The position numbers were made by a program, and so were the translations under genes. Shown in pieces: positions 18,399 to 29,287 of a DNA stretch of 36,695 bases. How positions within the stretch are numbered: position 1 is the stretch's first letter; every line of letters begins with the position of its first letter. The stretch comes from Candidatus Woesearchaeota archaeon (GTDB lineage Archaea > Nanobdellota > Nanobdellia > Woesearchaeales > B72-G16), in assembly GCA_003650545.1 (NCBI GenBank), contig QMQO01000001.1:68845-105539 (forward strand), in the 5' to 3' direction. The notes beneath the pieces are model-generated. The model had not been told where the DNA came from, did no database searches, and was given only the letters and a program-made list of their open reading frames with translations.

Positions 18399-18554
18399 TG
18401 AGCCCGAGGGGATTTGAACCCCCGACTTCGAGAGATTAAATCTGTGTTTTGATCTTCACTCGATCTCTAGCCTGGCTTACCTTTTTTTTTCAGGATATCA
18501 GTTTTGCTGTCTCTTGTGAGACTCGAGCACTCCACCAGACTAAGCTACGGGCTC
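18399..18554 (-). tRNA. tRNA-Ile(GAU) with three introns
   Basis: Acceptor strands GAGCCCG/CGGGCTC, T8-A9, D-arm GCTTAGTCTGGTGGAGT and T-arm GGGGG-TTCAAAT-CCCCT define a class I tRNA with discriminator A. Unspliced it has no sensible anticodon arm. Three BHB introns resolve it: 18503-18523 (21 nt, position 30/31, central helix TGCT/AGCA, inner hairpin GTCTC/GAGAC); 18465-18495 (31 nt, 37/38, inner CCTG/CAGG); 18427-18456 (30 nt, 45/46, central CGAG/CTCG, inner AGAT/ATCT). Removing them gives stem CTCGA/TCGAG, loop CTGATAA (anticodon GAT) and variable loop TGGTC, 74 nt in all. The lengths add up exactly (74+82=156). Confidence 0.92.
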
Positions 18555-27071: not shown

Positions 27072-29287
27072 ATGGCTGAAAGGATGGTTGAAAAGGTTAC
27101 TAGGCTCATGAAAGAGCAATCACAAATCAGAAACATCGCTATTGCGGCCCATATCGATTGAGATTAAAGCGAGAGCTTATTCTCCGAGTGCATGGAAAAA
27201 CCACATTTTCTGATAACCTTCTAGCTGGTGCTGGAATGATGGCTGAAGAACTAGCCGGAAAAGCTTGTGTTCTTGATTTTCGTGAAGACGAACAAGAAAG
27301 AGGAATCACAATCGATGCTGCCAATGTTTCGATGGTGCATGAATTTGAAGGCGAAGAATATCTGATAAATCTTATCGATACTCCAGGTCATGTTGACTTT
27401 GGCGGCGATGTAACAAGAGCGATGCGCGCTGTTGACGGTGCTATTGTGCTTTGTTGCGCTTCTGAAGGGATAATGCCTCAGACAGAGACTGTTCTGAGGC
27501 AGGCTCTAAAAGAAAGAGTTAAGCCTATCTTATTTATCAATAAAACTGATCGCTTGATCAAGGAGCTTCAGCTAACGCCTGAAGCAATGCAAGAACGATT
27601 TATTAACATAATAAACAATGTTAATCAACTGATAAGAGGTATTGCAGAAAAGGAGTACGCAGAAAAATGGCTTGTTAATGTGCAGGATGGTAGCGTTTGT
27701 TTTGGTTCTGCATTTCATAATTGGGCGTTATCTCTTCCATATATGAAAAAGAAGGGAATTACGTTTAAGGATATAATTTCTGCTTACCAAAGTGGAAATG
27801 ATGAGGATTGGAAGGCTCTTAAGAAAAAGGCGCCATTACATGAAGTTGTTCTTGATGCAGTTGTAAAGCATTTACCAAATCCTCTTGAAGCTCAAGAATA
27901 TAGAATCCCTAAGATTTGGCACGGTGAACTTGAAAGTGAAGAAGGTAGGTCGTTAGTCAAATGTGATTCGAAGGGACCATTATTTTTTGTGATTACTAAG
28001 GTTGTTATAGATCCGCAGGCTGGCGAGATTTCAGCTGGCAGGCTCTTTTCTGGAACAATGACTAAAGGAACTCAGGTTTTTTTGAATCGTGCAAGGCAAC
28101 ATGCAAGGATACAACAAGTTTATATTTATAACGGAGCAAAGCGCGAGATTGTTGACAATGTTCCAGCAGGAAACATAATAGGTGTTGGTGGATTGAAACT
28201 GGGTTTACCTGGTGAAACAGTAACCTTTGAAGATACAGAACCGTTTGAGAAGATCACTCACATCTTTGAGCCGGTTGTAACAAAGGCAATCGAAGCTAAG
28301 AAGCCTAGCGACTTACCAAAGTTAATAGAAGTGCTAAGGCAGGTCCAGAAAGAGGATCCTACTATAACAATCAATATTAATGAGGAGACAGGTGAGCATT
28401 TAATGAGTGGGATGGGAGAACTCCACTTGGAGGTTATTGAGCATAGAATTGTTAAGGATAAAGGTATCGAAGTACAGACTTCCCCTCCTATAGTTGTTTA
28501 CAGAGAAGCAATCACAAAACCAGGTGAGGAATATATGGGTAAGTCACCTAACAAACATAATCACCTATTTTTCGAAGTAAGACCATTAATGCCAGAGGTT
28601 GCGAAAAAAATAAAGAAGGATGAAATATATGAAGGTAGGATCAAGAAAAAGGATCAGAAGTTGATAGATGCATTTGTTGAGGCTGGCTATGATGCAAAGA
28701 CAGCTGCGAAGATTAAGAATGTTTGTAAAGGCAATATACTAATAGATGGTACTCGAGGTATAGTACATATTGGCGAGATAATGGAGATGGTAAATGACAT
28801 GTTTGAAGATGTGATGAATGCAGGTCCAATAGCAAGAGAGCCTTGTATTAATATGGAGGTTACACTAACTGATTGTAAACTACATGAAGATGCTATTCAT
28901 CGTGGACCTGCACAGATCTACCCTGCTGTTCGTGAGGGTATCCGTGGAAGTATTATGTCTGCAAAACCCATTATATTTGAACCAGTACAAACATTACAGT
29001 TTGAGGCACCAGCAGAATATATGGGCGAGTTGAGTAAATTAGTGAGCAATAAACGTGGACAGTTATTGGAGATGAACCAAGAAGGAACGATTGTTGTTGT
29101 TAAGGCAAAGTTACCTGTTGGAGAAATGTTTGGATTAAGCTCAGACTTAAGATCTGCAACAGGAGGCAGAGGAAACTTCTATTTGATTGACCAGAGCTAT
29201 CAAAAACTGCCAGACGAGTTACAACAGAAGATCATTAAACAGATTCGTGATAGGAAAGGTTTGAAAGAAGGGCAGGTTGGGGTATAG
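27072..29287 (+). CDS. fusA: Elongation factor 2, gene interrupted by a 32-nt intron
   Basis: aEF-2, the translocase GTPase. Exon 1 (27072-27158) encodes 29 residues ending NIAIAAHID. The unspliced frame then hits TGA. Exon 2 (27191-29287) resumes HGKTTFSDNLLAGAG and runs to the end, giving 727 residues, the normal archaeal size. G1 (AHID^HGKTT) is split by the intron. G3 is DTPGH and G4 is NKTD. The diphthamide His lies in DAIHRGPAQIYP, and the C-terminus has SDLRSATGGRGNF typical of the family. The start is preceded by GAGGAGGT. The next genes are EF-1A and S10, the usual archaeal str order. Everything except the 32-nt insert is well conserved, so the gene is clearly functional if spliced. 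Confidence 0.92.
27159..27190 (+). other. BHB intron in the EF-2 mRNA
   Basis: The 32-nt insert starts TGAGATT and ends CCGAGTG. Its exon-intron joints fold as a bulge-helix-bulge: outer helix CCAT/ATGG (exon-exon), central helix TCG/CGA plus an A.G mismatch (exon 1 with intron), 3-nt bulges ATT and TGC each cut after the second base, and inner helix GAGA/TCTC. The hairpin ends in AAGC-GAGA-GCTT with a GNRA tetraloop. Only this boundary gives GAT+CAT (Asp-His) and the correct frame. Without removal the product stops after 29 residues. Confidence 0.88.

Follow-up and report, generated by a model that had tools for sequence, protein, structure and literature searches.

How could a cell obtain elongation factor 2 (EF-2) from a gene that is interrupted within its GTP-binding P-loop? 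The question is raised by a tiny archaeon whose EF-2 gene lies at 27072–29287 (+) of the window, the whole stretch of 36,695 nucleotides that we analysed. A 32-nt insert, TGAGATTAAAGCGAGAGCTTATTCTCCGAGTG (27159–27190, +), which occurs only once in the window, splits the gene exactly between the codons of Asp29 and His30 (AHID^HGKTT). Upstream, exon 1 (27072–27158, +) translates to the 29 amino acids MAERMVEKVTRLMKEQSQIRNIAIAAHID, matching the N-terminus of archaeal EF-2 (aEF-2); downstream, exon 2 (27191–29287, +) reads HGKTTFSDN... through to the stop, 698 amino acids in all. Read unspliced, the frame meets a TGA as the first codon after Asp29, and the insert, whose length is not a multiple of three, also shifts the frame. 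Joining the exons gives a stop-free aEF-2 of 727 amino acids that scores 1033 bits against TIGR00490 (cut-off 738), and the junction is unambiguous because a one-base shift breaks the protein. An initial sequence-only reading of 27072–27240, which covers exon 1, the intron and the beginning of exon 2, had described a 32-nt insert between Asp and His carrying a TGA and a frameshift, and had proposed that excision at bulge-helix-bulge (BHB) cut sites restores EF-2; the sequence and the joined product agree with it. We conclude that the insert is very probably an archaeal BHB-class pre-mRNA intron, one of a recurrent set in EF-2.

The RNA predicted from the borders of the insert has all the parts listed in that reading: outer helix, central helix, bulges, inner helix and GNRA hairpin. 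On the + strand, the outer helix pairs CCAT of exon 1 (27149–27152) with AUGG of exon 2 (27192–27195), which falls in the His30-Gly31 codons, and the central helix pairs AUCG of exon 1 (27153–27156) with CGAG (27185–27188) through three base pairs and an A.G. The inner helix pairs GAGA (27160–27163) with UCUC (27181–27184) and is topped by an apical hairpin, AAGC-GAGA-GCUU (27167–27178), whose GNRA loop is seen in the sequence and by RNAfold. Two 3-nt bulges lie on opposite strands, AU^U (27157–27159) and UG^C (27189–27191), with predicted cuts at 27158/27159 and 27190/27191. EndA usually cuts after the second base of each BHB bulge; applied to the window bulges, this rule gives exactly the EF-2 protein junction. 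Only 0.8% of inserts with shuffled bases matched the central and inner pairing of the window. A group I or group II intron was rejected, as the insert is only 32 nt long and has no Rfam match at gathering thresholds, and so was an intein, given the same length, the in-frame stop and the frameshift.

We searched for similar inserts in other genomes using sequence patterns. An AHID-gap-HGKTT pattern matched 5 genomes among 353 of the order (reversed control 0), and a wider pattern matched 9 among 371 of the phylum (control 0) and 13 among 103 of a second order (one control match); protein searches added four that the patterns had missed (G529, G544, G561 and G428). A still broader pattern, CAYAT...TT[F/L], was replaced by a stricter one after matching mostly intact genes via the upstream His-Ile. 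Gaps in G030 proved to be masked Ns. G056 and G238 were also discarded, as frameshifts or deletions; such lesions in EF-2 of L136 (G056), L127 (G238) and L090 are probably sequencing errors. In total, 21 genomes carry BHB introns in the EF-2 P-loop, 14 at the window position and seven at four other positions, all within 14 nt. Site A, the window position between the Asp and His codons, holds introns of 22–36 nt in the 14 genomes; site B lies inside the Ile codon (G442, = L045), sites C (G528, = L044) and C' (G359, G398, G413 and G559) inside the Lys codon, and site D between His27 and Ile28 (G428). G563 has, within its Lys codon, a hairpin insert of 31 nt with two central pairs only; we counted it as an uncertain 22nd case. 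A single cutting rule restores the EF-2 reading in 21 of 21, with G544 requiring a 4-nt 3' bulge, and all 14 site-A inserts place a stop in the exon 1 frame. We saw no intron-like inserts elsewhere along the EF-2 genes examined. Two further observations concern EF-2 itself: L135 (G052) is otherwise intact but has an in-frame loss of ~57 residues in domain II (...NPNGKVAQMEEV...), and five genomes that are 91–97% complete (G006, G017, G055, G357 and G553) have no EF-2 match, reflecting a missing contig or something odd.

Base pairing is conserved across these introns while their sequences change. Of 12 proposed pairs in 11 site-A genes, 94.7% are standard, and the covariation score is 0.517 vs 0.174 for shuffled alignments (0 of 500 reaching it) and no more than 0.155 once the structure is slid by 1–3 columns, counts that lean both on choosing sequences for an insert at site A and on laying them out in the proposed register. 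The inner helix is paired in 100% of cells, with changes on both sides at four of four pairs, and the outer helix in 97.7%. G527, G549 and G558 use ATT rather than ATC for Ile and carry A rather than G at the opposite intron base, so that exon and intron positions change together. These compensating stem changes, and an insert common to relatives, are what the sequence-only reading had suggested looking for. The structures are not uniform. The central helix, three pairs plus A.G in the window, has four of four pairs in 5 of the 10 other aligned site-A genes, at sites B, C and D and in two C' genes; outer and inner helices form at site A, and the outer helix is weak to not formed at B, C, C' and D. 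Some of the substrates are therefore relaxed, given the A.G in the window and these weak outer helices. Shuffling the inserts of other site-A genes matched in 0.02–1.3% of cases, except for G544, where the strict register does not hold. CAT encodes both His27 and His30 in 14 of 14 intron genes but in 36 of 116 intact sites (P=4e-7 by Fisher's test, indicative, being uncorrected for kinship among related sequences). Such a bias could arise either because pairing is selected for or because introns insert preferentially where these codons already stand.

We then asked how the introns came to be distributed in this way, using a tree of 159 EF-2 proteins from which the P-loop columns were left out. 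Site A required 13 changes to account for its 13 rows, of which well supported branches forced 10, compared with 12.7 for shuffled labels. Close by on the tree, at 0.07 changes per site from G543 and 0.05 from G160, stand genes that lack the intron. G172 and the intron-free G173 match at every one of 26 nt spanning the joined site, so that G173 presents a clean empty site. One family yielded six EF-2 genes, each of them interrupted, and four different positions are used among them. The site-A trait is thus spread over the tree no differently from shuffled labels, and near relatives often lack it; gain and loss are therefore frequent, and on this sequence evidence the EF-2 P-loop of this archaeal class forms a hot spot at which BHB introns have come and gone repeatedly, at several different positions. 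The pattern may reflect repeated insertion, sliding, loss or transfer. One account of origin, compatible with the main reading, is a serious possibility although we do not favour it: a single old intron was kept and often lost, or moved along with EF-2 DNA. Site-A introns do share CGA(G/T)-like 3' ends, and many of their hairpins share UUAAG/CUUAA, but the shared 3' end is dictated by exon pairing, and both the tree, which fits no better than shuffled labels, and the five positions, four of which occur in a single family, count against it. As for transfer, identity around the G160 insert dips to 70–73%, vs 83% between its two neighbours, weakly suggesting co-conversion there, whereas four other pairs compared had no clear dip.

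Two accounts dispense with splicing altogether, and both appear very unlikely. In the first, the ribosome would skip the insert by translational bypassing, as in T4 gene 60. A hairpin is present, and in the window gene a stop stands right after the would-be take-off codon; bypassing in T4 gene 60, however, requires a landing codon matching the take-off codon, which here would be GAT, and the last codon of the insert is GTG. None of the 13 other site-A inserts ends in GAT, and inserts at five positions fit BHB geometry. The second account, just as unlikely, divides the locus into two proteins, a 29-aa leader and an EF-2 starting inside the intron or later. It draws on the exon 2 frame being open back to TTG 27158, inside codon 29, where a mechanical six-frame call places a false start beside the intron and reports a 709-aa ORF, thereby hiding the intron. 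Such a protein would have the first strand and the AHID of its GTP-binding site replaced, and in all the intron-bearing genes that we read, the N-terminus encoded by exon 1 is still that of a normal EF-2. Finally, an error of assembly or sequencing, or else a pseudogene undergoing decay, can practically be dismissed, for although the assembly is fragmented (133 contigs), the reading is refuted by same-position inserts in 13 independent genomes, different in sequence and alike in fold, and the remainder of the gene is intact. A second intact EF-2, whose presence alongside never-spliced transcripts would have refuted the intron according to the sequence-only reading, was not found in a search of the 85%-complete genome.

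For the BHB intron, the predicted course of events is as follows. The EF-2 transcript would fold into the bulge-helix-bulge at the exon-intron borders, EndA would cut each of the 3-nt bulges between its second and third bases, and the exons would be joined, most likely by RtcB, into a restored mRNA encoding an intact P-loop. A single EndA subunit was recognised in the genome, 170 aa long (TIGR00324, 117 bits vs a cut-off of 59.6); full-length comparison places it nearest to Nanoarchaeum equitans chain 3iey_A and to chain 1a79_A, and no beta subunit was found in the 85%-complete assembly. RtcB is encoded as well (456.7 bits vs a cut-off of 27). Its gene (L176/L177, G000 contig 10) lies in a frame of 1008 aa that contains an intein-like insert following ...GVGFDIN; the presumed exon ligase would then have to undergo protein splicing itself. 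We infer cleavage, ligation and essentiality from the sequence. Production of EF-2 would depend on splicing because an unspliced message runs into a stop at the first codon of the intron, and with EndA and RtcB both encoded it is sound to infer that the EF-2 supply would depend on the tRNA splicing enzymes. A tRNA gene of the window (18399–18554, −; Rfam tRNA 38.7 bits) also contains an intron, an insertion of about 85 nt into the anticodon arm, and was missed by ARAGORN.

The same loop is also a target of inteins. At Lys|Thr of the EF-2 P-loop (HGK^...HN^TT) we saw about 30 inteins in related genes, several read directly and about 18 more judged from frames of 880–1233 aa; the one in G026 has splicing and LAGLIDADG domains. 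Inteins at HGK^TT, full-size and shortened, occur in L134, L135, L161, L170, L172, L049, L067, L075, L090, L091, L094, L224 and L237; they are common in this archaeal class. Every EF-2 intron is located upstream of the intein site, at a distance of no more than 16 nt, and in no gene did we see an intron and an intein at once. In the second order, 17 genes bear introns (G563 included) and 19 bear inteins among about 87 covering the loop, and none bears both, against 3.7 expected (P=0.009, from counts made by hand and ignoring kinship). This sequence comparison suggests that the two kinds of insert may be rivals for one target. The equivalent loop of EF-1A has no credible intron in 338 genomes, and thus a conserved P-loop alone does not attract them; the sole match there was read as chance, resembling AAA-type ...GHGKTT and not EF-1A. 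The reason for this particular spot is a matter of speculation. An intron splitting a homing site would protect the gene, and so the BHB introns might act as a vaccine that splits the DNA site of the intein homing endonuclease, leaves the RNA and protects the essential EF-2, a tentative idea that we consider rather improbable. It is similarly doubtful, on the same reading, that an arms race between two self-removing inserts sustains the turnover of both at one spot. The overlap of intron and intein hot spots makes the long-standing question of intron placement directly testable, and the recurrence allows archaeal mRNA introns to be watched as they are gained and lost.

We finally compared the EF-2 intron with known systems. 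The sequence-only reading knew of no BHB intron in EF-2, and our literature search on BHB together with EF-2 or elongation factor 2 found nothing either, in a coverage that leaves subscription journals and preprints mostly outside and priority uncertain. The one protein gene named with a coding BHB intron is cbf5 (PMC2738675, PMC7714728). Like the EF-2 intron, that of crenarchaeal cbf5 is short (16–44 nt), is cut by EndA, disrupts the codon of a catalytic residue and has been gained and lost patchily (PMC2738675); its splicing was shown experimentally, whereas that of the EF-2 intron is predicted from sequence. The EF-2 introns differ in gene and phylum (relatives are named Woesearchaeota or Nanoarchaeota) and in occupying five positions at a hot spot shared with inteins. 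Coding BHB introns would thus extend beyond cbf5 and Crenarchaeota, here to a central translation gene far from that group. The mRNA of Haloferax HVO_1309 is likewise cut by EndA, but its BHB sites are in the 5' UTR and not in coding sequence (PMC7714728), and the 12-bp introns of a rudivirus are putative, without proof of splicing (PMC2738675). Inteins in nucleotide-binding loops share the EF-2 P-loop (HGK^TT) but are long and are removed from the protein instead of the RNA, and the one tested has a LAGLIDADG domain. Archaeal tRNA and rRNA introns have the same recognition structure and presumed enzymes, some also with relaxed motifs; the host RNA of the EF-2 intron, unlike theirs, is a translated mRNA, and therefore reading frame and protein are at stake.
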